The notes under the pieces are model-generated. The model made no database searches. It was not told the DNA's origin and saw only the letters and a program-made list of their open reading frames with translations. From the IMG/VR virus record IMGVR_UViG_3300035661_000015, positions 64,001-128,000 of that record: a stretch of DNA of 64,000 nucleotides. One strand, 5' to 3'. Made by a program: the position numbers and the translations under genes. Shown piece after piece: positions 16,375 through 33,111 of this stretch. Source of the stretch: a virus. The first letter of the stretch is position 1. Every line of letters begins with the position of its first letter.

Positions 16375-16376
16375 AA

Positions 16377-16903: not shown

Positions 16904-16914
16904 GGGAGACCAGT

Positions 16915-17499
16915 ATGTCAGAATGTGAGTATTGTAGAAATAAAGATATTTTTTTTGCCCGATGTAATCTATGTTCTAAAAAATGGTGTTCCAGTCACTG
17001 TGTTCTTATAAACGGAGCGGTATTTGATGTGCTCGATAGAGCCTATTACTGTCAAGATTGTTACGAAGTCATCAAAGGTGTTAAAAAGGATATGGGTGAA
17101 AAAGCCCAAACCGCCCCTATTTCTCCGCTTAAAGAACTTTATAAAATCTATTATGGTAAAGATTGTAAGGATATTTTATATATAGAAGTTACTGGCGGTA
17201 TTGTAGAATTAGAGACGATTATTTACGAAAAATACTGGAATACCCTTGAACGTTTTACTCTTAATCTTTATAGAATAGCATTTTGTGATGGTAAGATGGT
17301 GGAAATATCAAATTGTTTAAATAGAACGCCATACGAGTATTGGTTTGAGCAAATTCCAAAAATCTTTCAGGGAATAGCTGTTCGAAATGGTCACTTAATG
17401 TATTCACAATGCAGGACTCGATACTATAGAGAGTTTGTTTTAGCACTTAGGGAATATAAAGATGAACAAAAAGAAAATTTTATTTGTAACCGAAGCTAG
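16915..17499 (+). CDS. Cys-rich N-terminal zinc-finger protein
   Basis: 194 residues. The first 55 contain CEYC, CNLC, CSSHC and CQDC, a cross-brace-like double zinc site. The remainder is alpha/beta with several aromatic residues and no membrane segments. It opens the long operon after the ssb terminator, and its 3' end overlaps the first glycosyltransferase by 38 bases. Function unknown; a regulator or adaptor role is conceivable. Confidence 0.65.
   Translation: MSECEYCRNKDIFFARCNLCSKKWCSSHCVLINGAVFDVLDRAYYCQDCYEVIKGVKKDMGEKAQTAPISPLKELYKIYYGKDCKDILYIEVTGGIVELETIIYEKYWNTLERFTLNLYRIAFCDGKMVEISNCLNRTPYEYWFEQIPKIFQGIAVRNGHLMYSQCRTRYYREFVLALREYKDEQKENFICNRS
17112..17129 (-). repeat. Dispersed bipartite repeat, reverse orientation
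   Basis: CGCCCC, 2 bases, TTTCTCCGCT: the reverse complement of the consensus with a short spacer, inside the zinc-finger gene and antisense to it. Confidence 0.6.
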
Positions 17500-19045
17500 T
17501 TACTTAACTACCGGCTACAGCAACTATACGCGGTGCTTGCTTCAAGAACTACATGATAGCGGCAAGTACGAATTATTTGAACTTGGGTGCTATGGTCACC
17601 AAAATCATCCAGATGTTGCAAAAATCCCCTGGACCTTCTTTGGAAACCTACCAGAGAACGACCAGGAAGCCGCAATTTATAATTCAAACCCATCTAACAT
17701 GTTTGGCCTATGGAAGTTCGACGATATTTGCCTAAAAGTTCAACCCGATATCGTAGCGGATTTTCGGGATGAGTGGTATTTTAATTGGCAGGCTAATTCG
17801 GCCTATCGGGACTTTTTTCATTGGGTTATTCAGCCAACAGTTGATGCTGAACCACAAAATGAAGAGTGGCTTGCGACCTTCCAAAAGGCCGATGCAGTTT
17901 TAACATATCAGGACTGGTCACTTAAGGTTCTTCAAAGGGCCGATCCGTCCGGACTATTAAAATTAAAGGGCTCTGCGGTTTGCGGCATAGAAGATACTTT
18001 TAAAATTATTGGAGATAAGGCGGCCCATAAGAAGAATTGCGGACTAGATCCCGAATCATTTATTATTGGGTTCGCCTCACGCAATCAAATCAGAAAACAG
18101 TTTGGGCCGCTCTTGCGGGACTTTGCTAAACTACTTAGTGAGTTGCCCGCCCACAAGGCCGCAAAAACCCTTCTCTATTTACACACTACCTATCCGGATC
18201 AGGGTTGGGATATTCCACGTTTAATTAAAGAGTATGGGCTAAGTCAAAAGGTTCTCTTTACCTATCAGTGCCAAAATTGCGGGAACGCCAATATTCTACA
18301 CTTCCAGGAGTCGAAGACCTTTTGCCCGACCTGTAAGCAATACGCGGCGGTTCTACCTAATCCTGAGTTTGGCGTTAGTCGCGAAGCACTTGGTTATATT
18401 TATAATTTAATGGACTTGTACGTTCAATATTCAAACTCGGAGGGACTCGGCATAACATCAATTGAGGCAACGAGTTGTGGCGTTCCCCTATTCGCCCCCA
18501 ACTATTCCGCCATGTCCTACGTTGTTGATAAAACCCGTGGAATTAAATTAAAAACCCAAGACCTTATCATTGATCCGACAAATGGCGGCTGTAAAAGGGC
18601 GGTTCCCGATGGTACATCGTTCGTTGCCGAAATTAAAAAATATATGGAATTGCCCTCCGACCTAAAGGAAAAACGCCGCCACGAAACTCGCCGACTCGCC
18701 CTTGAACATTTTTCTTGGAAGAAGTGTGCGGCTAAATGGTCCGAAGTATTTGATACTTTTCCGCTGAAGGATGTAAACACCACTTGGAAATCGCCCCCTA
18801 GGATTTTTACCCCAAACCTTCAATTACCCCAGGGAATTAGCTTCAAAGATGCAGTTAGATGGGGAATTAATAATATTCTCGGCGACCCACGCTTGATGAA
18901 TACTTATATGGAATTGAAAATGGTAAATGATGCGGTCACGTATTCATCCAATAAAATTGACCACATAAATGTCTATCTAAATCAGATGTTACAATTACGA
19001 AATAGCATGAATGCGGCTGAAGAAAAACGGGCAAAGACTTTATGA
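17462..19045 (+). CDS. GT-B glycosyltransferase (GT4-like) with zinc knuckle
   Basis: 527 residues. The N-terminal Rossmann domain begins ILFVTEASYLTTGYSNYTR. The C-terminal half has the GT4 donor-site pattern: YVQYSNSEGLGITSIEATSCG with the E-x7-E pair, then NGGCK and a helical tail. Between the domains is an unusual CQNCG...CPTC zinc ribbon (about residues 271-294). It would transfer a sugar from a nucleotide donor; acceptor unknown. It is the first of several glycosyltransferases in the operon and is followed by an ATGA-coupled small gene. The fold call is good, the substrate unknown. Confidence 0.85.
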   Translation: MNKKKILFVTEASYLTTGYSNYTRCLLQELHDSGKYELFELGCYGHQNHPDVAKIPWTFFGNLPENDQEAAIYNSNPSNMFGLWKFDDICLKVQPDIVADFRDEWYFNWQANSAYRDFFHWVIQPTVDAEPQNEEWLATFQKADAVLTYQDWSLKVLQRADPSGLLKLKGSAVCGIEDTFKIIGDKAAHKKNCGLDPESFIIGFASRNQIRKQFGPLLRDFAKLLSELPAHKAAKTLLYLHTTYPDQGWDIPRLIKEYGLSQKVLFTYQCQNCGNANILHFQESKTFCPTCKQYAAVLPNPEFGVSREALGYIYNLMDLYVQYSNSEGLGITSIEATSCGVPLFAPNYSAMSYVVDKTRGIKLKTQDLIIDPTNGGCKRAVPDGTSFVAEIKKYMELPSDLKEKRRHETRRLALEHFSWKKCAAKWSEVFDTFPLKDVNTTWKSPPRIFTPNLQLPQGISFKDAVRWGINNILGDPRLMNTYMELKMVNDAVTYSSNKIDHINVYLNQMLQLRNSMNAAEEKRAKTL

Positions 19046-19260
19046 TGTATAAGTGGGGAAGATCAAACGCTCAAATATATACAAGAAAAGAAATACTTTC
19101 ACTTAAACTAAAGGGTTTTATATATCGTTCTCTTGTAACGTGGTACGAAGTTTTACAAAAACAATCCTCCGATATTATTTTCGATAGGCAAGATTTATAT
19201 ATTAAAGTATATGGTTTAGATAAAAAATTATTTAAAGGAAAAAGATATAGTTTAAAATGA
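19042..19260 (+). CDS. Small basic hypothetical protein (72 aa)
   Basis: ATGATG at 19042 overlaps the upstream stop, and its own stop overlaps the next ATG. The product is Lys/Tyr/Leu-rich (net basic), helical, with no cysteine pattern or membrane helix. Position within the cassette is the only clue. Confidence 0.55.
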   Translation: MMYKWGRSNAQIYTRKEILSLKLKGFIYRSLVTWYEVLQKQSSDIIFDRQDLYIKVYGLDKKLFKGKRYSLK

Positions 19261-19730
19261 AATATCGACAAATTAAATTTAATAATGGTGAACAAAGTTT
19301 AGTAAATCTTGAAAAGTGTGGCTATATCTACATTGATACGAATAAGAGCCTTATTGAGTTTTTTGGCGAGTTCACTGGCGAAAATATTGAGTCTACTGAT
19401 TTTTCTATGAATTATAAGTTCCTATTTGGAACAACCGCAGATAAGGATCATTTAGAAGCTCTTATATATTATTTAAATCAACACAGAGATTTTGAATTAA
19501 TTGAATCAAATACTGAAGATGGTAGAAAACTTATCTTTGCTGTTAATTTTGACAAGTTCATTTACTGTGTTAAGTCTGAAACCGGATGGCGATGTTATTA
19601 TACTAATGATAAATTCATTGATTTGAACTTTGACTTTATTGATATTTTTTCGGTAGTCTTAAAGGCGGTAAGGGAGTTCGACAAAGAGACCCAATATATC
19701 ACTAACCTAAAAAATCAGGAAACCGTATGA
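19257..19730 (+). CDS. Hypothetical protein (157 aa)
   Basis: ATGA-coupled at both ends. A soluble alpha/beta protein rich in Phe, Asp and Asn, with no identifiable motif. It sits between two GT4-like enzymes. Confidence 0.6.
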   Translation: MKYRQIKFNNGEQSLVNLEKCGYIYIDTNKSLIEFFGEFTGENIESTDFSMNYKFLFGTTADKDHLEALIYYLNQHRDFELIESNTEDGRKLIFAVNFDKFIYCVKSETGWRCYYTNDKFIDLNFDFIDIFSVVLKAVREFDKETQYITNLKNQETV

Positions 19731-20788
19731 ACATTCTTATGATTGCCCCTTTCGATACAACTGGCTATGGACAAGCTTCTCTAGCCGTTCTTAAATCCCT
19801 TCGTACATTCGCCAACGTAACCCCTAAGGTTTTAAATCTTGGGGGCTGTTACGAATTAAATGAAGAGGAGAAATCATATTTTAATGAAACGGGTGTCGCA
19901 GACTATGATGCTGTAATTCAAATGAGTCTACCCGAACATTTTACTTATGATGCTAGGGCCGGTATTAATATTGGGTGGTTTTTCTGGGAGTCAGACCGTT
20001 TACCACAATGGTGGGTCAATCCATTAAAAACAATGGATATGATTTTCGTATCCAATAAAACAACATTACAAGCATCTATCAACTCACTTGGACATAAAGC
20101 TAATCTTCGTGTAGTTCCCATTCCGTGTGATCCGGAAATTTATAAGAAAGAACATACGGGCTTTAATATCAAATTCAACTCAAATAAAAAGCCATATATA
20201 TTCTATTCTATCGGAGAATGGACTGAGCGAAAGAATTATAGGGATTTGGTGAGAGCATTCCACCTTGCTTTTGATCCAAATGATCCGGTCGAACTCATTA
20301 TTAAGACGGGTGGGGCTACCGACGAACAGATTTGGGGCGATATTAACACGGTTAAACAATCTCTTGGTTTATATGAGGATATCGATCACTATAAGAAGGA
20401 AATAATTATAAATCAACCGCTCCCATATAAGAGTATTCTTTCTATGCACCAAAATTGTGACTGCTTTGTCTCAACGTCTTTGGGCGAGGGTTGGAGTTTG
20501 CCGACTTTTGATGCCTATGCTTTTGGTAATCCGACGATTAGTCCAGTTTCTTTTGAAGAGAATAATTTTTCTGATTTTCATCTATATAGATCGGAAGAAA
20601 GGTGTAATCAACCGCCGCTCTATACGGGGGATCAAAAAATGTATCGACCGTCAGTTGATCAGGTTATTAGATGTATGAGAGAGGCTTATAAGAGTCCGGA
20701 GAAGTATGAAATTGATGTAAGTAAATTTTCCTATGAGAGTATTGGGAAAATGATTGGACAAAAATTACAATATATTGAGGATGTTTAA
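19727..20788 (+). CDS. GT-B glycosyltransferase, GT4-like
   Basis: 353 residues. NILMIAPFDTTGYGQASLAVL forms the first Rossmann strand and glycine loop. YSIGEWTERKNYRDLVRAF is the typical start of the donor domain, and CFVSTSLGEGWSLPTFDAYAFG is the E-x7-D/E nucleotide-sugar motif. The opening motif closely parallels that of the 17462 enzyme, so they are probably paralogues. It adds a sugar of unknown kind to an unknown acceptor. Overlaps the preceding gene by ATGA. Confidence 0.85.
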   Translation: MNILMIAPFDTTGYGQASLAVLKSLRTFANVTPKVLNLGGCYELNEEEKSYFNETGVADYDAVIQMSLPEHFTYDARAGINIGWFFWESDRLPQWWVNPLKTMDMIFVSNKTTLQASINSLGHKANLRVVPIPCDPEIYKKEHTGFNIKFNSNKKPYIFYSIGEWTERKNYRDLVRAFHLAFDPNDPVELIIKTGGATDEQIWGDINTVKQSLGLYEDIDHYKKEIIINQPLPYKSILSMHQNCDCFVSTSLGEGWSLPTFDAYAFGNPTISPVSFEENNFSDFHLYRSEERCNQPPLYTGDQKMYRPSVDQVIRCMREAYKSPEKYEIDVSKFSYESIGKMIGQKLQYIEDV

Positions 20789-20790
20789 AC

Positions 20791-21081
20791 ATGTATTACT
20801 GCGTCCTAATATCTTCGCGGGATGAGCCCCTAATTAAAAAATACAAAGGCCCCAAATATCAGCTTTATGGGTTCACTAAGATTTTCACGGACAAAGAAAT
20901 GTCCAAAATTATAAAACTACTTCAGCCCTATGATATCAGACTTTTTGAAAGAATCGTATTTAAAGATAAAAAAGAGTCATCATTAAAAAATAAGATAAGG
21001 GCGGTTATGGGGCCAAGTATGGATTTGATTGAATGTAGAATTTTAGCAAAGAAATTTTTACCACTAGAGAAAGTTATATGA
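20791..21081 (+). CDS. Hypothetical protein (96 aa)
   Basis: Starts three bases after the glycosyltransferase stop and shares ATGA with the kinase-like gene. A basic soluble protein with no known motif. The segment RAVMGPSMDLIECRILAKKF resembles ordinary helix packing only. Confidence 0.55.
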   Translation: MYYCVLISSRDEPLIKKYKGPKYQLYGFTKIFTDKEMSKIIKLLQPYDIRLFERIVFKDKKESSLKNKIRAVMGPSMDLIECRILAKKFLPLEKVI

Positions 21082-21584
21082 TGGGACAATTATGGGCAAC
21101 GATAGGGCCAGCACGATCGGGAAAAAGTACGTGGGCAACAGAATGGAAGTATGATGAAAGAATTATTGGGAATAAATGTATTTTTGAAGATGATCATTTG
21201 CGACTCTCCCTACATGGAGAACGCTATAAAAGGTTAGCCGAACCGATGATCTTTGGGATGAAGTATACGACTTTAAGAGCACTCTTAAAATCAAACGACC
21301 ATGTTCTAAATCCCGAAACAAATACTACCGAGAGGTCTATACGAAATTTATTAGAGATCGACCCAAAATGTATTTTTATTATCTTCGACACGCCCCTAGA
21401 AATTTGTATTCAGAGAGCTATTGACACAGGGCAGTCCGACCTTATAGAATGTAATGTAATCAACCGACATTACCAAAATATGTTAAATCTTACGAACAGT
21501 AATTCACTTGAATCTTCGGACTTATATAGCCATACATATAAAATACAACAATTTATCGCAGAGATTAGAAAAGAATATTCATGA
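21078..21584 (+). CDS. P-loop kinase, polynucleotide-kinase-like
   Basis: 168 residues starting at tandem ATGs. The P-loop GPARSGKST is at about residues 10-18. EDDHLRLSLHGERY resembles the acceptor-binding region of T4 PNK-type kinases, and FIIFDTPLEICIQRAIDTGQ is the strand plus Arg lid segment of the AAA_33/PNK group. It may phosphorylate 5'-OH ends or a small metabolite such as a sugar or nucleoside. With an RNA ligase elsewhere in the genome a repair role is possible; being embedded among glycosyltransferases, a sugar-kinase-like role is the alternative. Confidence 0.65.
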   Translation: MMGQLWATIGPARSGKSTWATEWKYDERIIGNKCIFEDDHLRLSLHGERYKRLAEPMIFGMKYTTLRALLKSNDHVLNPETNTTERSIRNLLEIDPKCIFIIFDTPLEICIQRAIDTGQSDLIECNVINRHYQNMLNLTNSNSLESSDLYSHTYKIQQFIAEIRKEYS

Positions 21585-21733
21585 AAAATCGCAAAAAGAA
21601 GTTGTTTGCATTTGGGATTATCACCCCCGATGGTAGAAAAATTCAGCTATCTGGGACCAAGGATGGTGAAAGAATTGAAAATGCCAAATCTATTTGTCAT
21701 GAATTAAATTCATTACTAGAAAAGTCAAATTAA
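21581..21733 (+). CDS. Small hypothetical protein (50 aa)
   Basis: ATGA overlap with the kinase gene, ending TAA 21733. Basic N-terminus (MKNRKKKLFAFGIITPDGRK), then an amphipathic helix. Reads as an ordinary coding frame. Confidence 0.55.
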   Translation: MKNRKKKLFAFGIITPDGRKIQLSGTKDGERIENAKSICHELNSLLEKSN

Positions 21734-21734
21734 A

Positions 21735-21812: not shown

Positions 21813-21821
21813 TTGCTATAG

Positions 21822-21971
21822 ATTCGGCGAATAAGAAAGAAATTTTTTTTAATTGTAGTTGTACTATGGCCCATCGTTATCTTAAAATTAATATATAGGG
21901 CCGCAATACCTACATTAAAATTTCTTAAAAATTCCATTTATGAATTCTTCATTTACATTAAGGAAATATAA
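21822..21971 (+). CDS. Small membrane protein frame lacking ATG (49 aa)
   Basis: The frame immediately after TAG 21819-21821 reads IRRIRKKFFLIVVVLWPIV and onward to a TAA one base before the next gene. A basic N-terminus followed by one strong hydrophobic helix is a classical inner-membrane anchor. No ATG, GTG or TTG is in frame; ATT 21822 or ATA 21831 would have to initiate, or it is the remnant of a gene whose first part is at 21735. It is not merely a shadow, since no other gene covers this stretch. Confidence 0.4.
   Translation: MRRIRKKFFLIVVVLWPIVILKLIYRAAIPTLKFLKNSIYEFFIYIKEI
21859..21888 (+). promoter_or_regulatory. Weak promoter-like site before 21973 gene
   Basis: TTGTAC, 18 bases, TAAAAT, ending 85 bases before the glycosyltransferase start. 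It overlaps a possible small gene, so support is modest. Confidence 0.25.
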
Positions 21972-21972
21972 T

Positions 21973-22977
21973 ATGAGTCCGATTAAACAAATTCTACACA
22001 AGGCTCTACGAAAGCCGACCGACCGACTAAATGTAATTACTTTTTCAACCCACGAGGGTTATCAAACAAACCTACGTAACGTCAACGCTAATTTTTATTG
22101 CTTTGATGGTGGTGGTTTTAAAATATGGAATAGGGCATCTAGGCCCGTTCCTAACAATCATTATATCATCCCGCTACCAACCTCCGAAAACCTAATCCAG
22201 TTCCTCCCACTTGGAACGATGTATGACCTAGTTTTCTCACAAAATAATCATGTCCATTTTAATCAAGCTTATCAGTTATCACGACAATTAAATATTCCAC
22301 TGATCAATCTACAACACTGTCTTCCTCAAACAAAAGACCCTAAATATATTAATCAGATTAAAGGTATGAGGGCCGATATCGATGTTTTTATTACGGACTT
22401 TTCTAGAGATGAGTGGGGTTGGGGCGAAAATGAAGCACGTGTTGTAAAGCACGGAATGGACACTGATCTTTTTACAGATCAGGATAAGCGGAGAAATATA
22501 AATGTATTATCGGTCGTAAATGACTTTATTAACCGAGATGCTCAGGTCGGGTATTCAGTCTGGAAAGAAACGGTCGGGGGCTTTACCACAAGAGTTTTGG
22601 GCGAAACGCCGGGACTTTCAGTTGGGGCCAAAGATAACGACGAACTTGTAGACGCCTATAATACTTGCGGCGTATTTTTAAATACAGCTACCTCGTCCCC
22701 AATTCCTATGAGTTTAATGGAGGCAATGTCTTGTGGGGCACCTTGCGTTTCTTTGTGGAACCCTATGATTGCTACTGTTATTAGACATGGTGAGAATGGA
22801 CTTATAGCAAAAGATGTAGGGGGGCTAAGGGCGGGATTAAAATACATGTTGGAGAATCCTGAGTTAGCCAAAAAGATGGGGAATGAGGCCCGCCACGATA
22901 TTATAAAGTATTATTCCCTTCAAAGGTTTACAGACGATTGGGACGCCCTATTTCAAGATGCGATTAAACTTTTTTGA
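21973..22977 (+). CDS. GT-B glycosyltransferase, GT4-like
   Basis: Start at ATG 21973, eight bases after AAGGA, rather than the upstream ATG at 21940. 334 residues. The N-terminal domain includes LVFSQNNHVHFNQAYQLS. The donor domain includes VFLNTATSSPIPMSLMEAMSCG (E-containing nucleotide-sugar motif), HGENGLIAKD and a C-terminal helical hook. It is another member of the cassette's GT4 set, with a dispersed repeat copy (22487-22496) in frame as DKRRN. Substrates unknown. Confidence 0.85.
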   Translation: MSPIKQILHKALRKPTDRLNVITFSTHEGYQTNLRNVNANFYCFDGGGFKIWNRASRPVPNNHYIIPLPTSENLIQFLPLGTMYDLVFSQNNHVHFNQAYQLSRQLNIPLINLQHCLPQTKDPKYINQIKGMRADIDVFITDFSRDEWGWGENEARVVKHGMDTDLFTDQDKRRNINVLSVVNDFINRDAQVGYSVWKETVGGFTTRVLGETPGLSVGAKDNDELVDAYNTCGVFLNTATSSPIPMSLMEAMSCGAPCVSLWNPMIATVIRHGENGLIAKDVGGLRAGLKYMLENPELAKKMGNEARHDIIKYYSLQRFTDDWDALFQDAIKLF

Positions 22978-23057
22978 TCAGGGTAATAATTTTAATTATA
23001 CTGGTGGCAAGATTTATAGAAATTTTAAAAACAATAAAGGCGGAGTGGAATAAATGA
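22974..23057 (+). CDS. Possible 27-aa membrane microprotein
   Basis: TTG 22974 overlaps the upstream TGA, and the frame ends in TGA sharing ATGA with the next gene. The product (IRVIILIILVARFIEIL then a basic-acidic tail) is a single transmembrane helix. The double overlap fits the operon's style. No clear ribosome site, so tentative. Confidence 0.35.
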   Translation: MIRVIILIILVARFIEILKTIKAEWNK

Positions 23058-23521
23058 AAATTAATTTAACGATAAACAATCTGGTAGTTATGGGGGATTG
23101 GGTAAATGTAGACCCGCTTTGTGGCGACGGAACTAAAAAGAATGTACCCCTTGATAATCTCGACGAAATTTGCGATAATGGTGAAGTTGAGGTAATTAGG
23201 GCCAACATGGTTCTTTCTTTCTATTCGTATAGGGTCACCCAATCAATTATTAATCATTGGGCCAAAAAACTAGAGATTGGCGGCAAACTCATCTTAATCG
23301 AAAAAGATGCCGATCAAATCATCAACGCTTTTAAAAATCGAAAGATTCAGGTCGGGGACCTTAATACCCTTATGCTTGGCGAACAAAACTACCCGTTTCA
23401 GTATTGTCGATCATTAACTAATTTGAAGCAAATGACAAGATATATTGAGAACGCCGGACTAAAAGTTACTATGACAGACTTTGGTAACATTTATTTTACA
23501 ATTGAGGCAATTAGACAATGA
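23054..23521 (+). CDS. SAM-methyltransferase-like protein, degenerate
   Basis: 155 residues. It has the late part of a class I methyltransferase fold: VIRANMVLSFYSYRVTQSII (strand 4 and helix), WAKKLEIGGKLILIEKDAD (the L.pGG.l.i motif and strand 5), then a final hairpin. The early glycine-rich SAM loop is not clear; DPLCGDGTKKN may replace it. Similar small proteins accompany LPS/O-antigen genes. It may methylate a sugar or be a non-catalytic relative. Confidence 0.6.
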   Translation: MKINLTINNLVVMGDWVNVDPLCGDGTKKNVPLDNLDEICDNGEVEVIRANMVLSFYSYRVTQSIINHWAKKLEIGGKLILIEKDADQIINAFKNRKIQVGDLNTLMLGEQNYPFQYCRSLTNLKQMTRYIENAGLKVTMTDFGNIYFTIEAIRQ

Positions 23522-24318
23522 GTGATGAAAATGTAAACGCCCCCGTAGCCTTCTCTTGCTTTAACTGTTTTTTCGCAGAATTAAGCGGAGAAAGTCAAGT
23601 GGGGTGTTCTTTGGGCCTTATCGACAAGTATAGGGCTCAAACAGAGGTTGAACTAAGGGACGGTTTTTTTAGCGTTGTGGGGCGGGCCGGTTGCCGAACA
23701 TTCCGCCACAAGGATTCCGTAGTTAATCCCCCTGATAATTTCTCCGCTCAAGTATTTGATGAGGCTAGTTTTACTTTCGATTTAGTTATGTCTGTAGATA
23801 AGACCGAATCGGATTTTGTGCAGGTAATCGATTTTGCAAGAAATATTGTTAATGGGTCCAAGGTAAAGCCCCTGGGCGTCTATTTCGTATTACGCCCCAA
23901 CACCTTTTTGGCTAGTGATTTTTGGGTCGAAATTAATAAAAATCCTCTTGGCGTACCTTTTTATATTACGACCATACAAGAGGATTGTAATCACTTAAAG
24001 GCAATTGACGAGGGTGTTTCAAAATGCACAGCCGAATGGGTTTGGACAATTCGGTCGGTTGACTTTACTCGTTATGATTTTATTGATCGTGCTAACTACT
24101 TAATTAACCATAAGTTAGATCGATTCGTATTGACCGATATGGGTAACGGCAGCCTTACTAGACGTGATATTTTTAATACTTTAGGTGGTAATGTGCCCGT
24201 ATTAGAAGATCCGGAGAGGCCCCTAAAAAATTATGTTGATAAAGTTATGTATTTTGCCGACAAGGATCAACATCACTACCTAATTAAAAATAATCGACAT
24301 ACTTTTTATGAGGAATAA
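23518..24318 (+). CDS. Hypothetical protein with N-terminal Cys cluster (266 aa)
   Basis: ATGA overlap upstream. The first 65 residues contain CFNC, GCSLG and GCRTF, a likely metal-binding site. The rest (about 80-266) alternates strands and helices and includes FYITTIQEDCNHLKAIDEG and VWTIRSVDFTRYDFI. That is reminiscent of a GT-A-like nucleotide-diphosphosugar fold, but no clear DxD is present. Two repeat copies in opposite orientation (23584, 23739) lie within it. Function unknown. Confidence 0.6.
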   Translation: MSDENVNAPVAFSCFNCFFAELSGESQVGCSLGLIDKYRAQTEVELRDGFFSVVGRAGCRTFRHKDSVVNPPDNFSAQVFDEASFTFDLVMSVDKTESDFVQVIDFARNIVNGSKVKPLGVYFVLRPNTFLASDFWVEINKNPLGVPFYITTIQEDCNHLKAIDEGVSKCTAEWVWTIRSVDFTRYDFIDRANYLINHKLDRFVLTDMGNGSLTRRDIFNTLGGNVPVLEDPERPLKNYVDKVMYFADKDQHHYLIKNNRHTFYEE

Positions 24319-24664
24319 TGTGCTTAATATAGTTGAAAAAGATTGGGGCTGGGAAAAGTGGATTGTTAATAATGATTTTTATTGTGGTAAAATCCTCCAT
24401 ATTAACGTCGGTGCATCGACCTCTTACCATAAGCACATACAAAAGCTAGAAACATTATTTGTTCAAAGTGGTACACTTAAGGTACTATATGGAGAAGAGG
24501 ATAGTCCTAGTATATATTATTTAAGTGAAGGCGAGTCTATGACAATCTATAAGAATATTTTTCATAAACTTATCGCCTTTAACGAAGCCGTAGAGTTGAT
24601 TGAGTTTTCAACCCACCACGAGGATAGCGATAGTATCAGAAAAAAGTTTGTGTACAATGTATAA
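24308..24664 (+). CDS. Cupin-domain protein
   Basis: 118 residues forming one cupin barrel: GWEKWIVNNDFYCGKILHI, then TSYHKHIQKLETLFVQSG with the HxH...E metal residues, and FHKLIAFNE as the second cupin motif. It resembles the C-terminal cupin of mannose-6-phosphate isomerase/mannose-1-phosphate guanylyltransferase enzymes. In this cassette it probably isomerises or epimerises a sugar or nucleotide sugar. Overlaps both neighbours. Confidence 0.75.
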   Translation: MRNNVLNIVEKDWGWEKWIVNNDFYCGKILHINVGASTSYHKHIQKLETLFVQSGTLKVLYGEEDSPSIYYLSEGESMTIYKNIFHKLIAFNEAVELIEFSTHHEDSDSIRKKFVYNV

Positions 24665-25331
24665 TCTAAATTATTTTGAAAAAGGAATTTGTCTCTGTCT
24701 CGACAAACGATATAAGACTCAGTGGCTTGATTTAAAAAAACAATTTACTAGCCGAAATTTTCAAGTGGAAGACTTTATTACAGGAGGGGGAACCGATCTT
24801 CCATATGCTACGTATTCTAGGATTGATGATCCTTGGCCAAAAAGTAATAAGGTCAAACATCGTGAAAATTTTAATGCAATGTATAAAAGGTGCCAGGACT
24901 CTGGTTATAAAAATGCCCTATTCCTAGAGGATGATGTTATCCTACTGGATAATTTTAACGAAGTGTTCAATAAGGCTATTTCTGACATTGAAACACTTAA
25001 TATCAAATGGGACTTATTGTATCTTGGGGTTAATTTGAGCTGGGCGAAATCAGAAGAAGTCACGCCAAACTTATTAAGATTGAGGGAAAACGCCCTTACA
25101 ACCCACGCCTTTGCAATTAATAATGAGCACCATGATATGTTCACAAGGCTAAGACAGCTTGGTCCCGGTGAAACAGATTTAAAAATCGCCGATGTTATAC
25201 AGACGAACCCCGAATTTGGCTGTTATTCAATCTGGCCAAATATTGCTATTCAAAAAACTGGCTTTAGTCATATTGTTGGTGGTAATCTAGATTATGATGA
25301 ATATTTTAAAAATAGGGGAACGTGTTTATGA
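24657..25331 (+). CDS. GT25-like glycosyltransferase
   Basis: Start at ATG 24657, overlapping the cupin stop. 224 residues. YFEKGICLCLDKRYKTQWLDL matches the opening of family 25 LPS glycosyltransferases, and ALFLEDDVILL is the EDDV acidic metal motif of that fold. Ends ATGA-coupled to the next gene. Likely adds galactose or a related sugar, but specificity cannot be read. Confidence 0.8.
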   Translation: MYNLNYFEKGICLCLDKRYKTQWLDLKKQFTSRNFQVEDFITGGGTDLPYATYSRIDDPWPKSNKVKHRENFNAMYKRCQDSGYKNALFLEDDVILLDNFNEVFNKAISDIETLNIKWDLLYLGVNLSWAKSEEVTPNLLRLRENALTTHAFAINNEHHDMFTRLRQLGPGETDLKIADVIQTNPEFGCYSIWPNIAIQKTGFSHIVGGNLDYDEYFKNRGTCL

Positions 25332-25828
25332 AAATAAGTGTTTTAGTTTTTGAGGATTTTGGCACCGTAGAATACTTTAATAAGGCTATAAAATTATTGT
25401 TAGAAGAAAATAATGGTAGTATACTTATAAAAGATAAATGTTCTGACATTATAAACTTAGAACCGTTTCGTGAAAAGGTCAAACAAAATCCTGATTACGG
25501 ATTTATGTATGGGGACTCTTTATTACTAGGAGAAACCCAAGTGCCTATCTATAGAGAACCTTTTGATGCACACCGTTTAATGAATTTTAACTTTGTTGGT
25601 GGACCCGTACTATTTAATCTACAAGCACTTACTCTTCTTGGTGAAGATCTTATAGATAAAAATTTAAGAATTTTTAAGTTATATGATCTGTGCTTACGTG
25701 TGAGTAAAACTCGTATAGGTCACCATATTCCAAAAATAATTGCCACCGAATCAACCCTTGTCTGGAGTCCGGCATTATTACAAAGTGAAATTACGTACTT
25801 ACAAAGAAAATATGGAGTCGCCCAATGA
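25328..25828 (+). CDS. GT-A (GT2-like) protein, short
   Basis: ATG 25328 follows AGGGGA. 166 residues. It keeps the middle of a GT2 fold: YGFMYGDSLLLGETQ with a GD acidic pair where DxD would be, then PFDAHRLMNFNFVGGPVLFN, typical of the acceptor-side strand. The N-terminal nucleotide-binding unit is much reduced, and the whole is shorter than usual GT2 enzymes (about 230 or more). It may work as a partner of a neighbour. Catalysis not assured. Confidence 0.6.
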   Translation: MKISVLVFEDFGTVEYFNKAIKLLLEENNGSILIKDKCSDIINLEPFREKVKQNPDYGFMYGDSLLLGETQVPIYREPFDAHRLMNFNFVGGPVLFNLQALTLLGEDLIDKNLRIFKLYDLCLRVSKTRIGHHIPKIIATESTLVWSPALLQSEITYLQRKYGVAQ

Positions 25829-26544
25829 GATCAACGACCCCAGCTAAAAAAGCCATAGTTAATGAGCCCGTAGACGTAATAATTCCAGCCGCTACGCTTA
25901 AGCGGAAAATATCACAGTTGGGGCCGGTCTCTCTTTTTAAGCTAGGTAGTGGCAAAACCCTTATTGAAGATCAGGTATATAAAATTAAAAAGGTATTTGG
26001 GCGGGCCGACTTCTATTATGTGGGGGGTGAACAAATAGATAAGATCGCCCCTACTAATTTCCCCGCTCATATTAGACTCCTAGAGAATGAGCTACATGAA
26101 CAGACCGGAACCGCCCGATCTATGGAGATAGCTTCCCGAGTAACAAAAGCACCAAGGGTTTTAATTGTTTATGGCGATCTTTATTTTGACCAATCTATTA
26201 TTAGTGCCCTAGTTGCCCTTAATAAAGAAGATTGTTCATACGTATTGTCGGGAGAGAACCAGGGGGATAAAAAAATTGGCGTTCACTCTATTGATAAAGT
26301 TGTTACTAATTTGTATTATGATATAGAGCATAGATGGCTACAGATCGCTTATCTTACGGGCAAAGAATTAGACATATTTAAAAAAGTGTCTGCAAATCCA
26401 CTTAATCGCCCCCTTCTTGGTTTTGAAATTATAAATCAAATTATACAAGAGGGTGGAATCCTAAAAGAATTGTTCGTTAAAGGATATATATTTGATGTTT
26501 CAAAACTAGAAGATATTAAAAGGCTAAAAGGCCAAGGGGGCTAG
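25825..26544 (+). CDS. Sugar nucleotidyltransferase-like protein
   Basis: 239 residues. VDVIIPAAT...GSGKTLIEDQV resembles the opening of NTP-transferases, with the usual G-x-G-T-R/K loop altered. RVLIVYGDLYFD holds the acidic metal motif. SVLSGENQG and a C-terminal helix-strand region complete an approximate GT-A/nucleotidyltransferase fold. It could activate a sugar-1-phosphate for the glycosyltransferases. The degenerate nucleotide loop leaves activity uncertain. Confidence 0.65.
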   Translation: MRSTTPAKKAIVNEPVDVIIPAATLKRKISQLGPVSLFKLGSGKTLIEDQVYKIKKVFGRADFYYVGGEQIDKIAPTNFPAHIRLLENELHEQTGTARSMEIASRVTKAPRVLIVYGDLYFDQSIISALVALNKEDCSYVLSGENQGDKKIGVHSIDKVVTNLYYDIEHRWLQIAYLTGKELDIFKKVSANPLNRPLLGFEIINQIIQEGGILKELFVKGYIFDVSKLEDIKRLKGQGG

Positions 26545-26545
26545 T

Positions 26546-26740
26546 TTGGATATTAGAACACAAGCGGGAATATTTTTAATCGTATGGAGTATATTATTTG
26601 TATTAGTCGACGTTTATGCACGTATCTTTGGGGGTAAAGAAGCTACATTTTCATATCTTATTAGTGAGTTTTCACAAAATAATCAGGCCGTACCTTTTGT
26701 GCTTGGTTTTATTATGGGTCATATTTTTTGGAGAATGTAA
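26546..26740 (+). CDS. Small membrane protein, TTG start (64 aa)
   Basis: TTG 26546 directly after the TAG of the previous gene. Two hydrophobic helices (about residues 8-27 and 50-64) flank a polar loop. It could anchor the glycan machinery at the membrane. No family. Confidence 0.5.
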   Translation: MDIRTQAGIFLIVWSILFVLVDVYARIFGGKEATFSYLISEFSQNNQAVPFVLGFIMGHIFWRM

Positions 26741-27817
26741 TTGAAAATTGTAATTAATGTAGATAATCGTTGTGGTCACTATCCATATAAAAAAGGTATA
26801 GCTAATGTACTTCGTTATTGTGGACATCAGGTTTATTTGTGGTATACAGAATTTCCAGACGCACCAGCTATTCTAGATATTTTTTCACAATTTAAACCCG
26901 ATATTCTTTACACAAATTCATATAGCTTAGATTCGGCGACGATGAAGGCTATGGAAAAATATCCGGAAACAAAACTAATTCTCTTTTCTTCGGCCCACGG
27001 TGAAGCTAATACTTTGCCGATGGAATATCCGCTCGTTAGAGTTACGGACCAAGAAAAAGAATATGTTGAACACCTAAGAAAGATTGATCGCCCCAACTTT
27101 ATGTTTTTACACCACCATAATAATGTAATCGACTTTACCCTAGGTGGATGGAAAAAAGAATTCGGCGTCAATATTGCTGGAATCAAACATGGTGGCGACC
27201 TATTTACCTTTTTCAAGGGCCAACGCGACAAGAATTTAATTTGCGATATCGGATATTGCGGCGGCTACTGGGCCTATAAGGGAATTAATATTCGGAAGTT
27301 TATTTTTCCCCTATGTGACCCCAATAGAATTCCTCCGCTCAATGTTAAGATTTTTGGTAATCAGGGGGATTGGGCCAATCTACCACAATATTTGGGTTTT
27401 GCACAAGATCAAACCCTAAATAATCTATTCGCTTCTGCTACAATATGTCCTAATGTACATGAACCACATTCGACCGACTATGGTATCGACGTGGTAGAAC
27501 GTCCATTCAAAGTTATTTCTTCGGGTGGTTTTTGTATTTCTGACCATGTAAAATCTCTTGTAGAAGACTATTTTCCTGATAATGAAATCCCAACAGCTAC
27601 AACTGGTGAAGAATATGGCGAACTGGTTAACTATTATTTAAAAAATGAAGATGAGCGGGAAAAGTTAAGGGGGCGACAATACAAAAGAGTTTTGGGCGAA
27701 CATACCTATTTTGAAAGTGTGGCCGATATCTTTGCCAATCTCAATATGCCCGATATGGTTCGTGACGTTATGAATCATAAAATTATTTTCTTAGCACAAA
27801 ATGGAGTTAATTTATGA
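26741..27817 (+). CDS. CgeB-like glycosyltransferase
   Basis: TTG 26741 directly follows the previous stop. 358 residues with GT-B features: KIVINVDNRCGHYPYKKGI, DILYTNSYSLDSATMKAM in the N-terminal domain. The C-terminal VVERPFKVISSGGFCISD is the hallmark of the CgeB/glyco_trans_1_2 group (the motif binding the nucleotide sugar). A repeat variant (27654-27676) is in frame as ERE KLRGRQ. Ends ATGA-coupled to a 56-aa gene. Confidence 0.8.
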   Translation: MKIVINVDNRCGHYPYKKGIANVLRYCGHQVYLWYTEFPDAPAILDIFSQFKPDILYTNSYSLDSATMKAMEKYPETKLILFSSAHGEANTLPMEYPLVRVTDQEKEYVEHLRKIDRPNFMFLHHHNNVIDFTLGGWKKEFGVNIAGIKHGGDLFTFFKGQRDKNLICDIGYCGGYWAYKGINIRKFIFPLCDPNRIPPLNVKIFGNQGDWANLPQYLGFAQDQTLNNLFASATICPNVHEPHSTDYGIDVVERPFKVISSGGFCISDHVKSLVEDYFPDNEIPTATTGEEYGELVNYYLKNEDEREKLRGRQYKRVLGEHTYFESVADIFANLNMPDMVRDVMNHKIIFLAQNGVNL

Positions 27818-27984
27818 CCACGTTTTTTATACAAGTTTCTCCGGGTAAAATTATTAATTGTTCAAACATATGTCACACTGAGACGGTCTCTGATAACGGT
27901 GGTCTTATTATTTTTTTTGCAAAAGACCATTATATTGTAATTAACGCTACAGAAGCTAAAAAATTTTTAAAGGAATTCAATTGA
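27814..27984 (+). CDS. Small hypothetical protein (56 aa)
   Basis: ATGA overlap upstream and TTGA overlap downstream. Beta-rich with two Cys. No recognised family. Confidence 0.5.
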   Translation: MTTFFIQVSPGKIINCSNICHTETVSDNGGLIIFFAKDHYIVINATEAKKFLKEFN

Positions 27985-28826
27985 TAAACACACTACTTCC
28001 ATCAAAGAATAGACCGGGCCAATTAAAATTAACCCTTGATTCAATCGAGCGTTTTTGTCCAAATTTATTTGATATTAATGTTCTATATACGGCAACTGAT
28101 AGTAAATACTGGGAAGGTTATCAAAAATTAATCGATGAAAGTAAAAAATATTCTTTCCATGTACGGTTTATAAAAGAGTCAAATTTTTATGAAGACTTTA
28201 AAAATGTTTTATTTACAAAGTCTCTGTTTCATTTAATAACTGACGATACGGTATTTTATAAAAGTTCTCCAATAGCATCGGATATAGATATCGAATTACT
28301 CTTTTTTGAAAATCCTGAACTATTCTCTTTCTCTTTTAGACTTGGTTTAAACACTAAGGTCCAAACATATTATTTAAATCAAACACAGCCAGATTTAAAT
28401 GATTATAAAATTATGGGACATGATGAAAATATAATTATGTGGAATTTTAAAAATATTCCATCATGTTATAATTACGGATATTTTCCAGCGTGCGACAGTG
28501 TTGTTTATGATACTAATAGATTTTGGAATGTTATTAAAAGTAAAAAATTCAATTGTTTAAGGGGGTTAGAAGGCTTTCATTCTACTTATGATTCCATAAA
28601 ACAAAATCCTTATAGTTTCGCCTCAAGTTTTAAACAAAGTGTAGCTGTAAACCTATCGGTCAATTGTGTTAGTGAGGATGGGGTTCCATCTGGACTTGTT
28701 TATCCATTAACCACAGAAGAAATTAATACTAAGTACTTGGATGGTTATAAACTATTTGTTGAAATAGATCCTGATTCGGTAAAAGGTTGTCATACAGAAT
28801 TACCTATTACATTCATAAAGGAATAA
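27981..28826 (+). CDS. GT2-like glycosyltransferase
   Basis: 281 residues, TTG start overlapping the upstream stop. TLLPSKNRPGQLKLTLDSI is the SxxRP opening of GT2-type enzymes, and LFHLITDDTVFY has the DD metal motif at the end of the nucleotide-binding half. The C-terminal half contains the PACDSVVYDTNRFW acceptor-side block. It probably transfers a nucleotide-activated sugar. Four bases separate it from the epimerase. Confidence 0.75.
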   Translation: MINTLLPSKNRPGQLKLTLDSIERFCPNLFDINVLYTATDSKYWEGYQKLIDESKKYSFHVRFIKESNFYEDFKNVLFTKSLFHLITDDTVFYKSSPIASDIDIELLFFENPELFSFSFRLGLNTKVQTYYLNQTQPDLNDYKIMGHDENIIMWNFKNIPSCYNYGYFPACDSVVYDTNRFWNVIKSKKFNCLRGLEGFHSTYDSIKQNPYSFASSFKQSVAVNLSVNCVSEDGVPSGLVYPLTTEEINTKYLDGYKLFVEIDPDSVKGCHTELPITFIKE

Positions 28827-28829
28827 TAT

Positions 28830-29696
28830 ATGGACCGTCAAAAAGTGCTTATTCTTGGGGGCAATGGCTTTTTAGGCTCCCATCTTCATAAACGTCTCAT
28901 TGATAGTAATCGATATGAAATCTATGTTCCACCCCGAAATCTCGATTTAGAAAATGTTCACCATGTACAAACACTTTTTAATTTGTATCGGTGGGACATT
29001 GTTTTTCACCTAGCGGCGGTCCAAGGTAGTAATCCAAATTGCTTAGATATTAATAAAACAATAACTCAAAATATTCTAAATCATATAAATAAAAAAACAC
29101 GCCTCATCTTCGCCTCGTCTTCGACGGTCTATGGCGATATTGAAGTTGGTAGGGCAGCTTCCGAGTTTGATCAATTAATTCCAACCTCTGAGTATGGTTA
29201 TTCAAAACTATGTTCTGAAAGATACATCACTAACTTTCATGATAATTTTGTAATTTTAAGATTTTGTGCTATTTGTGGACCAGGAAATAAAAAGGGTTTG
29301 ATTACAGATCTAATCAACAAAGTTAAAAATAATCCATGTGACATATCTACGAAAAAGAAAATTGATGTTTTTGGAAAACCACCCGGTTCCACCAAACCCT
29401 ATATTTATGTTAAAGATGCTACCCACGCCCTTGAAGTCGCTATAGATGTAGAGTTAGGTATTTATAATATTTCTAGTGACACGACTATCTCTGTTTTAGA
29501 TGCGGCACACGTTATCCATAATAATACAATAACATATTTTAATATAATCTGTGAATTCAATAATATTGACTCGACTAATGACAATAAATATGTTAATCTA
29601 GATAATTCACTATTCAAAGAGAAAGCCAAGTTCTCTTATTTATGGCCGACTTCGGAATCTGCTATTATAGAAACGGTTAGAAAAAGTGATTTATAA
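28830..29696 (+). CDS. NAD-dependent sugar epimerase/dehydratase
   Basis: Extended short-chain dehydrogenase of 288 residues: GGNGFLG NAD loop at residues 10-16, HLAAVQGSN, Ser triad ASSSTVYG, and Y122-x3-K126 in EYGYSK. The later part is shorter and more diverged than in GalE or RmlB. It likely converts a nucleotide sugar for the neighbouring glycosyltransferases. It is a paralogue of the 30802 protein (same opening motif). Confidence 0.85.
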   Translation: MDRQKVLILGGNGFLGSHLHKRLIDSNRYEIYVPPRNLDLENVHHVQTLFNLYRWDIVFHLAAVQGSNPNCLDINKTITQNILNHINKKTRLIFASSSTVYGDIEVGRAASEFDQLIPTSEYGYSKLCSERYITNFHDNFVILRFCAICGPGNKKGLITDLINKVKNNPCDISTKKKIDVFGKPPGSTKPYIYVKDATHALEVAIDVELGIYNISSDTTISVLDAAHVIHNNTITYFNIICEFNNIDSTNDNKYVNLDNSLFKEKAKFSYLWPTSESAIIETVRKSDL

Positions 29697-29922
29697 AATT
29701 CAATATGTGGAACCTTTGGATAACAAGAATCTTTTTGCTGTTGCGGGTGACGACTCTGGGCTTAGTAAAAATGGTAAAGTTTGGTCTACTCTCGGTTATC
29801 TTAAAAGTCATATTACAGGGCGTCATGATTGTCATAAATATAATGACGACTATGAAGTTATTGAATACGAGATGGTGGAAGTAAAAAGGTACAAAGTGTC
29901 GGAGCTTAATAAAAATAAATGA
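29686..29922 (+). CDS. Hypothetical protein, GTG start (78 aa)
   Basis: GTG 29686 overlaps the epimerase stop. The product is hydrophilic with an acidic/basic C-terminus (VEVKRYKVSELNKNK). Of the kind often seen as small phage accessory proteins. No motif. Confidence 0.5.
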   Translation: MIYKIQYVEPLDNKNLFAVAGDDSGLSKNGKVWSTLGYLKSHITGRHDCHKYNDDYEVIEYEMVEVKRYKVSELNKNK

Positions 29923-29985
29923 GAGCTAAAGATGGATATAATTGAAGATTATAGTGTTTATAATATTGAATAATGGAGATTAATT

Positions 29986-30222
29986 TTGAAAATCAACTTA
30001 GAAAATTTGGCAACAACAATTGGTAAAGATGGATCTATTCGAGAATCTATGAAAATAGGAGTTTGAGCCATTAAATTAAGTTTTTCTGATGATTAATATC
30101 AAAATAGATACGAAATGGTATTAACCACCGAGGAGGCAAAAGGGTTGAGTGATAATATTTTGAATTTAATTAGTGAATACGAGAACTTTAAGTCAAATGA
30201 TGTACTTATCAAAAATAAATAA
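29986..30222 (+). pseudogene. Broken small protein gene with two in-frame stops
   Basis: From TTG 29986, after GGAG, the frame reads a normal-looking protein interrupted by TGA (30064) and TAA (30094), and continues to TAA 30222. The part after the stops (YEMVLTTEEAKGLSDNIL) is typical folded sequence. The continuous frame of good composition with two different stops suggests decay. The last part could still be made from ATG 30115 (35 aa). Confidence 0.5.
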
Positions 30223-30625
30223 CGGTTCGTATGATAACCGAATACTTTCAATTGAATTAGAACCTGATTTTCTAGAGTATATCAAAGGTGTTCGGGATAA
30301 GATTTTACAGACAGGTTTAAATATTTTTACGACACGGGTAAGTCATGATACAGTAAAAGCTAGATTTATTAATCCTCAAAATGATTGTTATGAAGATAGG
30401 AGTAAGAAACCATTTTTAGGAGAAGAAGATCGGCTGAGTTATTTTGGATACGATATATGTAAAGATTATTTTCCTAACGAAAACTTTTGGTATGAACAAA
30501 AGCCCGACGTAGTATATCTAGAAATATATAAAGATTACTTTGGCTTTTCTTTTGAAGAAAAGGGTATTCTCCATACCGGATCATTAATAAACCTTATTGA
30601 TTGGGAAATGAATTTTAATATATGA
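30197..30625 (+). CDS. Hypothetical protein (142 aa)
   Basis: Start at ATGATG 30197-30202, overlapping the broken frame. Soluble and aromatic-rich (DYFPNENFWYEQ), without catalytic signature. Ends ATGA-coupled to a zinc-ribbon gene. Confidence 0.6.
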   Translation: MMYLSKINNGSYDNRILSIELEPDFLEYIKGVRDKILQTGLNIFTTRVSHDTVKARFINPQNDCYEDRSKKPFLGEEDRLSYFGYDICKDYFPNENFWYEQKPDVVYLEIYKDYFGFSFEEKGILHTGSLINLIDWEMNFNI

Positions 30626-30801
30626 ATAATTATGATGAAGATGAAGAAAAGTGTTTAACAAACCGTGATAAAAAACTCGCCCCGAAACTTGGGATCTACT
30701 GGTGTAGAGGTTGTGATTTTTATTTAGTTAGAAGTCACAAACCCTGTCCTAATTGCAAATATATAAATGGCAAAAAAAGATTTAAAGCAAAAAGAGGTTA
30801 A
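30622..30801 (+). CDS. Small zinc-ribbon protein (59 aa)
   Basis: ATGA overlap upstream, and the stop is directly followed by the next ATG. CRGC (28-31) and CPNC (42-45) form a zinc ribbon; the N-terminus is acidic and the C-terminus basic (GKKRFKAKRG). Likely nucleic-acid- or protein-binding; role unknown. Confidence 0.6.
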   Translation: MNNYDEDEEKCLTNRDKKLAPKLGIYWCRGCDFYLVRSHKPCPNCKYINGKKRFKAKRG

Positions 30802-31791
30802 ATGATAACTTACAAAAATAAAAAGGTTCTCGTATTTGGGGGCAACGGGTTTTTGGGCAAGCATGTTTGCGAAGAACTACGTGATAACTCCTATGATGTA
30901 TACGCCCCGACCAGTAAAGAAATTAATTTACTGACGGCCACCTGTAATGACCACTACAAATACTATCTAAGGGACCATAATTTAATTAAGGCCCCTAATA
31001 TTTCCCGCTTAGATTATGGAATTAATTTAGCTGCATTACAGGGTGGAATTTTATTTCAGAGAAGTAATCAAGCTAATATCTATCATGACAACTTGATTAT
31101 GGGAATTACAGCTTTTAATCTATTTAAATGGTTGGGAGTAAAGAAAGTTGTTAATGTAGCTACTTCTTGCTCTTACGACTGTTCTAAAGAGGTTTTAGTG
31201 GAAGGAGATTTTTATAATGGAAGGCCCCATGAGTCCGTTGAGTTTTTTGGACTTGCTAAGCGTGGCGTAGAAACCTATGCACGTGCGATGAACAAAAACT
31301 TTGGGACCAGCTTTGTAACATTAGGAATCACAAATTTGTATGGGCCGGGCGACTCGACGGATTTAAATAAAACAAAGGTTACTATGGCTCTTGTCAAAAA
31401 ATTTGTTGATGCCCATATTAATAAAGATCCTTCTGTAATAGTTTATGGTGACGGCTCACCTTTACGCGATCTATTATATGTTGATGATGCGGCATTCTTT
31501 ATTCGTAAAGCAATGGAGAAATATGAGGATAAAGAATCCGTCCTGAATATTGGTAGCGGCAAAGAAATCAGTATTAAAGACTTAGCGGAGAAAGTTAAGG
31601 GGTTGGTGGGTTATGAGGGCGAAATCGAATGGATTAAGTCGGCCCCCAATGGACAAATGCGTAAATTTATAGACTGTTCTAAGCTATCCAAAGAGATTGG
31701 TTTTAATCCAAACTATCTAGTGCCTATTGAGGCGGGCTTACAAAAAACTATCAACTATTATAAAGAGTCCTGTTTTACGGGCGTTTCCTAA
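30802..31791 (+). CDS. GDP-fucose synthase-like epimerase, Tyr replaced
   Basis: 329 residues, extended SDR fold: GGNGFLGK at 13-20, INLAALQGG, VNVATSCSY (Ser triad) and NLYGPGD, a pattern closest to GDP-L-fucose synthase (WcaG/Fcl), which epimerises and reduces GDP-4-keto-6-deoxymannose. The catalytic Tyr-x3-Lys is F149-x3-K153 (FFGLAK), so the proton-donor Tyr is missing. It may be altered in reaction, or catalytically weak. A dispersed repeat encodes LAEKVKG (31584-31606). Confidence 0.8.
   Translation: MITYKNKKVLVFGGNGFLGKHVCEELRDNSYDVYAPTSKEINLLTATCNDHYKYYLRDHNLIKAPNISRLDYGINLAALQGGILFQRSNQANIYHDNLIMGITAFNLFKWLGVKKVVNVATSCSYDCSKEVLVEGDFYNGRPHESVEFFGLAKRGVETYARAMNKNFGTSFVTLGITNLYGPGDSTDLNKTKVTMALVKKFVDAHINKDPSVIVYGDGSPLRDLLYVDDAAFFIRKAMEKYEDKESVLNIGSGKEISIKDLAEKVKGLVGYEGEIEWIKSAPNGQMRKFIDCSKLSKEIGFNPNYLVPIEAGLQKTINYYKESCFTGVS
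31584..31606 (+). repeat. Dispersed bipartite repeat in epimerase gene
   Basis: AGCGGAGAAA, GTTAA, GGGGTTGG; the second half is imperfect. In frame as LAEKVKGLV, helix region. Confidence 0.55.
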
Positions 31792-31818
31792 TTTTTCCAT
31801 CCCAATGTGCCGAGATCT

Positions 31819-31843
31819 GGGTATATATTAATGTACCCTTTTT
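31819..31843 (+). terminator. Possible weak terminator
   Basis: GGGTA (31819-31823) and TACCC (31834-31838) around a 10-base loop, then five T. A five-pair stem is marginal. Confidence 0.3.
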
Positions 31844-31871
31844 GATTCTCGTACATTGGATAGGAAGAATA

Positions 31872-32324
31872 ATGAAAAAAATAGGTTTCTTTGTAGACAA
31901 ACTTGATAGTTCTGAACTTGCTTTTTTAATTTTAAATCAGGTCAATAAGAATGCCGATGTAAAAATAGACGCAACTATATTCACCACCTCACCATCTCTG
32001 CCTATGGTTTTACCTCAATGTGCTGTTATGGGGGCCGTTGAACTTTATGACTACGATGGAGTCGCCGTAGCAACATCCTTAGAAACGGCTCAAATTTTAT
32101 CTAATATGATTGGGCCGAAGAAAAAGGTTTTTTATATTTGGGACTTAGAATGGATGCGTATTCCACAAAAGTCCTATGAGGCCCTAGCCCCAATTTACCA
32201 AGACCCCCAGTTTATCATAGCTGCCCGATCTAACGAGCACGCTAAGGTTATTGAGAACGCTTGGAATATTAAGGTAAATATAATTAATCCGAATGTTGAG
32301 ATTGGGGGGTTTATCAATGTCTAA
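31872..32324 (+). CDS. Glycosyltransferase-like Rossmann protein, truncated
   Basis: Start ATG 31872 after AGGAAG. 150 residues resembling only the N-terminal domain of a GT-B enzyme: KKIGFFVDKLDSSELAF, YDGVAVATSLETAQILSN, VFYIWDLEWMRIP. The C-terminal donor domain is absent, so catalysis alone is unlikely. It may partner another glycosyltransferase. Confidence 0.55.
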   Translation: MKKIGFFVDKLDSSELAFLILNQVNKNADVKIDATIFTTSPSLPMVLPQCAVMGAVELYDYDGVAVATSLETAQILSNMIGPKKKVFYIWDLEWMRIPQKSYEALAPIYQDPQFIIAARSNEHAKVIENAWNIKVNIINPNVEIGGFINV

Positions 32325-33093: not shown

Positions 33094-33111
33094 GGAAAAG
33101 AGAAAAGTTAA

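Follow-up and report, generated by a model that had tools for sequence, protein, structure and literature searches.

A conserved sugar-gene cassette at a fixed genomic position in a large lineage of uncultured phages

Among described gene clusters, the surface-polysaccharide clusters of jumbo cyanophages come closest to the one reported here; they have been interpreted as a means of O-antigen diversification against other phages (PMC7824862). Mycobacteriophages are known to glycosylate their capsid or virion (Freeman 2023, cited in PMC12691614; PMC11256854), and phage-encoded glycosyltransferases (GTs) are proposed to act on the virion proteins. In T4-type DNA glucosylation, phage GTs are encoded with DNA-metabolism genes, and Wzx/Wzy-type capsule or O-antigen loci have GTs and nucleotide-sugar enzymes like those found here. 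Here we describe a block of sugar genes in a 64,000-nucleotide window, bases 64001-128000 of the 128,912-base IMG/VR virus record IMGVR_UViG_3300035661_000015. The rest of the 128.9-kb record was also taken into the analysis, and coordinates are window positions unless a sister or piece label (G or L with a number) is given.

Like the jumbo cyanophage clusters, this block packs many GT families, short-chain dehydrogenase/reductase (SDR) epimerases and cupins into a large phage genome. Those clusters are sporadic and polymorphic, whereas here the order of a gene core is fixed in nearly all loci and accessory genes vary. The cyanophage clusters use PfkB kinases and HIGH-type nucleotidyltransferases, neither of which appeared in a Pfam scan of the cassette proteins; a LicC-like nucleotidyltransferase and FamB, a protein with a four-cysteine (Cys4) head and a GT-A-fold domain, set the present block apart. 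The mycobacteriophage Maravista, for example, encodes two putative GTs, compared with seven core and variable accessory genes here.

A vertically inherited core of seven genes

The sugar-gene block is a compact series of ~15 kb (17.4-32.3 kb) with every gene on the + strand, a coding density of ~100% and exact 4-nt start-stop overlaps at 11 of 25 junctions (17462 to 33112). The first-pass annotation, made by a model from the sequence alone, had described a glycan-making operon packed with start-stop overlaps, and both points hold: the genes lie where it placed them, all on the + strand, and the order of the core genes is conserved in relatives. The core consists of the following genes:

17462..19045, + strand: GT4 glycosyltransferase with a zinc-ribbon insert (GT4-Zn); Glycos_transf_1 (PF00534) 4e-8, above the Pfam cut-off
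19727..20788, + strand: GT4b; Glycos_transf_1 7e-8, phrog_2170 1.6e-27
21940..22977, + strand: GT4c; Glycos_transf_1 1e-14; longest open reading frame (ORF) start at 21940
23054..23521, + strand: small methyltransferase-like protein; family with 78 hits
23518..24318, + strand: FamB, with a Cys4 head and a GT-A-fold domain that has no DxD
25825..26544, + strand: FamC, LicC/GlmU-like nucleotidyltransferase; profile match to 1jyk, 9e-10
31842..32324, + strand: FamD, half GT-B-like protein, directly before 32293 in sisters

Kin of this phage were gathered through the terminase, for which an alignment search returned 498 related viral contigs. A search with the GT4 alignment yielded at least 569 confirmed related IMG/VR stretches carrying GT4-Zn, from which 80 loci were kept. 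A GT4 of 530-560 aa like that at 17462 is present in G001-G004, G006, G008, G009 and G011; ssb precedes it in all eight, with one small ORF between the two in G001, G002 and G006. Across the larger set, 76 of 79 loci have ssb no more than two genes upstream of GT4-Zn. Where more than 5.5 kb of downstream sequence is available (n=56), the methyltransferase-like gene occurs in 54 loci, FamB in 53 and FamC in 52, those present keep that order, and FamD and an endonuclease-like gene come next where the locus is long enough. GT4b comes after GT4-Zn in most sisters, the position of GT4c is the same in G002 and G006, and homologues of 32293 and 33112 lie downstream of the cassette in sister records. 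The order in the window (17462, 19727, 21940, 23054, 23518, 25825, 31842, 32293, 33112) is identical to that of the sisters, and cassette size ranges from four genes (L139, L143, L141) to ~30 kb (G002).

Because this ordered conservation extends across relatives, chance grouping is excluded. Identity distances of GT4-Zn correlate with those of the terminase (Mantel r 0.70, p 1e-4, 12 phages), and the core therefore travels with the phage backbone. It is a vertically inherited, fixed-position cassette between ssb and recombination-type genes, a property of the whole lineage that lay beyond what the first-pass annotation could see. A multi-gene glycan pathway at one fixed position in a large, widespread lineage implies that glycosylation is central to the life of these phages rather than an occasional extra, and the cassette offers a lineage marker. 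No description of it was found in the open literature; most subscription papers and preprints lay outside that search.

The protein at 17462 combines an E(x7)E motif, kept in 78 of 79 relatives, with a GT4 C-terminal domain, as expected of a GT4 enzyme. All four cysteines of its zinc ribbon are spaced in the standard way in 43 of 79 sequences, and 2 more have a longer spacing; an invariant ribbon was rejected, as it is intact in about half of the sequences and degenerate or lost in a subgroup. GT4c is likewise a GT4 enzyme as annotated; its coordinates are given here from the longest ORF start, 21940, where the annotation used 21973. The protein at 23054 belongs to a conserved family, but its methyltransferase identity had been assigned by eye and no Pfam family matched above the cut-off.

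FamB is a new uncharacterized protein family. Its C14, C17, C30 and C59 are invariant in 55 of 55 sequences, and an AlphaFold2 (AF2) model built from these sequences (pLDDT 88), which replaced a poor model from 8 sequences (pLDDT 57), has a GT-A fold over residues 84-264 (best match 6yv7, Z 14). The head (residues 1-83) matched no known fold. Since the DxD site (positions 179-182) is variable among the 55 sequences, FamB is probably not an ordinary glycosyltransferase. FamC bears out the annotated nucleotidyltransferase likeness through its LicC match; its PK motif is intact in ~26 of 59 sequences, and the active-site Lys of this motif is replaced in this phage (alignment A4). FamD, previously given a start at 31872, matched no database family. 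Loss of canonical catalytic residues thus affects several components, a feature that the first-pass annotation could not see.

Candidate acceptors of the glycan

As we read these sequences, phages of this lineage probably make a sugar coat of their own, for which the phage particle is the most likely site. A cytosolic pathway glycosylating virion proteins is the best reading of the locus, and we favor it tentatively. The seven-protein core would make a base glycan, which phage-specific GTs and nucleotide-sugar enzymes inserted among the core genes would extend and vary. Sugar transfer would most likely be stepwise and independent of a lipid carrier, with phage proteins made in the infected cell, above all those of the virion, as its targets, and the likely gain would be a shielded or altered particle surface. 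Joint action of the core proteins, an accessory or scaffolding role of FamB and a virion protein as acceptor are our inferences.

Besides the precedent of capsid glycosylation in mycobacteriophages, sister genomes supply evidence on virion proteins. Stretches of (TP)n occur on homologues of the structural protein 34498 in G003, G005 and G009 and of the structural protein 52070 in G003 and G008, and a GT60-family gene (PF11397, 8e-71) is present in G003, G005, G008 and G009. Further GTs, including GT60, come after the cassette and ahead of Thr/Pro-rich proteins in G003, G008 and G009. Long Thr-rich stretches occur without GT60 in G023, G024 and G028, and none were seen in G022, G025, G026 and G027. 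These mucin-like proteins support a virion acceptor for a subclade; for this phage they are only suggestive. Among sister phages, long Thr/Pro mucin-like stretches lie at L141:15995-17668, L142:7849-10581, L144:2315-5044 and L281:3399-6056, some of them on 34498 homologues.

A lipid-linked surface polymer was assessed through its carrier enzymes. The priming glycosyl-1-phosphate transferase (PF02397) was found in 0 of 22 phage records (controls positive in 9 of 14) and the Wzx-type flippase (PF01943) in 0 of 22 (controls positive in 13 of 14), unlike in Wzx/Wzy-type loci. The cassette proteins are nearly all soluble, with one marginal hydrophobic segment in 15 of 663 proteins from the 80 loci. 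Because neither primase nor flippase was found and the proteins are soluble, a lipid-linked surface polymer is unlikely. The first-pass annotation had left the choice between virion and host surface open; these results now weigh against a lipid-linked polymer, and the mucin-like virion proteins of some sisters lean towards the virion.

Several observations weigh against virion glycosylation. Inner-leaflet enzymes of the lipopolysaccharide (LPS) core are likewise soluble, the host could supply primase and flippase, and the missing carrier enzymes may leave room for direct action on the LPS core or for use of host carriers. No Thr/Pro-rich virion protein was found in this phage itself, and GT60 and (TP)n tails occur together in one subclade only, so that they are not independent. 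The core is located in the replication block and does not adjoin structural genes. FamB, FamD, the SDR at 30802 and FamC of this phage are without canonical active-site features, which makes their chemistry uncertain. Nor does GTDB point to a host: the only genomes with GT4-Zn there are seven contigs (L227-L233) from metagenome-assembled genomes (MAGs) of unrelated phyla (SAR202, Verrucomicrobiales, Lokiarchaeota and others). Most have the phage gene order, and we rejected them as host genomes because they resemble phage contigs that were drawn into MAG bins; they give no host. A Planctomycetes host is a guess prompted by one secreted protein.

Modification of the host surface ranks second after virion glycosylation and appears rather unlikely. 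On this account the enzymes would alter a host glycan such as LPS core or O antigen early in infection, for example to block competing phages, which agrees with the place of the cassette among early-type genes and with a gene content like that of the jumbo cyanophage clusters, namely several GT families, SDR epimerases and a cupin. GT25 and a GDP-fucose-synthase relative are typical of LPS loci, and the accessory genes vary strongly among phages; the core, however, has a fixed order and follows the phage backbone, which is not how a polymorphic surface locus behaves, and the 22 records without priming enzyme or flippase and the near-complete solubility of the proteins count against this account as well. 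Sugars might instead be placed by the core on bases of the phage DNA, which would explain its place among replication genes. The constant location between ssb and nuclease/recombination-type genes, the zinc ribbon that many members have in their GT4 and GT4-conflict similarity point in this direction, but the ribbon is lost in many members and the thymidylate-synthase/hydroxymethylase family (PF00303) was found in 0 of 30 sister records. The single PF00303-family gene of this genome matches ordinary thymidylate synthases and adjoins DHFR, as expected of a copy that would serve thymidylate synthesis. A Tet_JBP search found nothing, which is weak evidence since the control genomes gave no match either, and the T4 alpha- and beta-glucosyltransferase families had no match among cassette proteins, a further departure from T4. 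Because the sisters have no hydroxymethylase gene and the phage's own copy is an ordinary thymidylate synthase, T4-type DNA glycosylation is unlikely, and we consider a DNA acceptor in general very improbable. The earlier statement that DNA glycosylation is not indicated thus extends to the 30 sister records and to the rest of the 128.9-kb record, where the search for base-modification genes returned the single thymidylate synthase-like gene beside DHFR.

Another cytosolic acceptor, a host protein or small metabolite glycosylated to disable defence or redirect metabolism, would suit a soluble pathway without a defined acceptor, and the NAD-salvage and macrodomain genes of this phage show manipulation of host metabolism. 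The many different sugar enzymes are more suggestive of a glycan that is large and variable than of a single small modification, however, and we give such an acceptor little credence. It is improbable, too, that enzyme-like proteins lacking canonical active sites (FamB and the half GT-B protein FamD) scaffold the real GTs in a dedicated machine, new in kind, that glycosylates a universal phage target, for example the replicating genome or the major virion proteins, and defines an uncultured phage group of very large size. Host-derived sugar genes brought together by accident, with no common task, might be suspected from accessory genes that vary from phage to phage, some of them degenerate in appearance; a core order maintained in dozens of loci, and passed on together with the backbone, already contradicts this account, which is the least credible of all. 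Taken as a whole, the first-pass observation is partly confirmed and its interpretation partly supported.

Accessory genes between the core genes

The accessory sugar genes differ strongly between phages. In this phage the core is interleaved with the following:

24308..24664, + strand: cupin, sugar-isomerase or dioxygenase-like; Cupin_2 1.2e-6, phrog_7851 1.2e-28
24657..25331, + strand: GT25-type glycosyltransferase; Glyco_transf_25 1.5e-5, LEDD motif
25328..25828, + strand: possible half GT-A protein; weak match to a 264-aa sister ORF
26546..26740, + strand: small protein (64 aa) with one predicted membrane segment
26741..27817, + strand: CgeB-like GT-B glycosyltransferase; Glyco_trans_1_2 1.7e-18
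27981..28826, + strand: GT-A-like protein; conserved family with an invariant DD (alignment A8)
28830..29696, + strand: SDR epimerase/dehydratase; Epimerase 1.6e-28, YxxxK intact (YGYSK)
30802..31791, + strand: SDR, GDP-L-fucose synthase relative; Pfam 1.2e-38, best PDB match 7ll6 (7.6e-38)

The cupin and the two SDR epimerases are as first annotated. At least eight GTs had been proposed for the block, of which five pass Pfam (17462, 19727, 21940, 24657 and 26741) and those at 25328, 27981 and 31872 are without a database match. Among these three, 27981 belongs to a conserved family, with relatives located near the terminase in L011, L012, L013 and L084; 31872 is the conserved core gene FamD; and the 25328 protein, which had no Pfam match, resembles part of a longer sister protein, sisters having a gene of ~260 aa at that position. 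The GT25-type protein has homologues in G002 and G006, where the counterparts of the CgeB-like protein are 36-38% identical to it. Membrane proteins, annotated in the plural, reduce to the ORF at 26546. For the small ORFs 19257, 20791, 21078 and 30173 and for the cupin, no homologue was found in the compared sisters.

Identification of the SDR at 30802 as a GDP-L-fucose synthase was not accepted. Its match to NCBIfam GDPFucSynFcl (3e-47) scores 161.6 bits, below the curated cut-off of 500, and the catalytic Tyr of YxxxK is replaced by Phe (FGLAK), or by His in three sister cassettes (HGxAK). A GMD partner for the GDP-fucose route was sought in this genome and none was found. One sister has a GDP-mannose 4,6-dehydratase gene (Pfam, 2e-91) within its terminase block (L008:1828-2853), and several other sisters have epimerase-family SDR genes near the terminase, where this phage has none.

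Flanking landmarks and the wider genome

The cassette is bounded by the following features:

16371..16838, + strand: ssb, left landmark; Pfam SSB 6.5e-22
16860..16905, + strand: hairpin rich in G+C with a T run after it, separating ssb from the cassette; RNA fold -25.4 kcal/mol, z -2.5
32293..33093, + strand: endonuclease-like protein, right landmark; phrog_559 2e-11, position conserved
33112..33858, + strand: conserved replication/recombination-block protein, right landmark; homologues in 8 sister ORFs, same order

The hairpin is a possible terminator; promoter and terminator scans performed no better than shuffles. Between ssb and GT4-Zn, G006 carries a sigma-70-like gene (Pfam; L134:2746-3261), and many sisters have ORFs of 150-220 aa at this spot, which are absent in this phage.

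By sequence comparison the phage is very divergent. Neither megablast of the cassette nor a search with the capsid protein found a match in 50,697 phage records, and terminase matches reach only ~20-31% identity. The tblastn searches of isolate phages with the GT4-Zn, CgeB-like and capsid proteins gave no match, a scan with the SDR as a single protein found nothing, and the only matches of one sister GT4-Zn were to distant GTs in S-CBS4, S-EIV1 and TJE1.

Beyond the cassette, this phage has two more GT-like genes, of GT4 and GT2 type (L004:12114-13169 and L003:4983-5810). DNA polymerase III alpha is apparently encoded by two genes that flank one for a proofreading exonuclease (10918-12852, 12865-13545, 13526-16099); the split is seen in sisters too, and in this phage the second half seems to carry an intein and HNH. 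Both subunits of ribonucleotide reductase also look intein-interrupted (L005:6641-8557, 8557-11304). Adjoining CTP_transf-like and NAPRTase/NAMPT-like genes (L005:14524-17240) suggest an NAD-salvage pair, with a macrodomain gene after them. At the start of the record (L003:1-2802), an alanine-rich repeat protein of ~160-270 aa is present in four tandem copies, and the other frames of this segment likewise read as long repeats.

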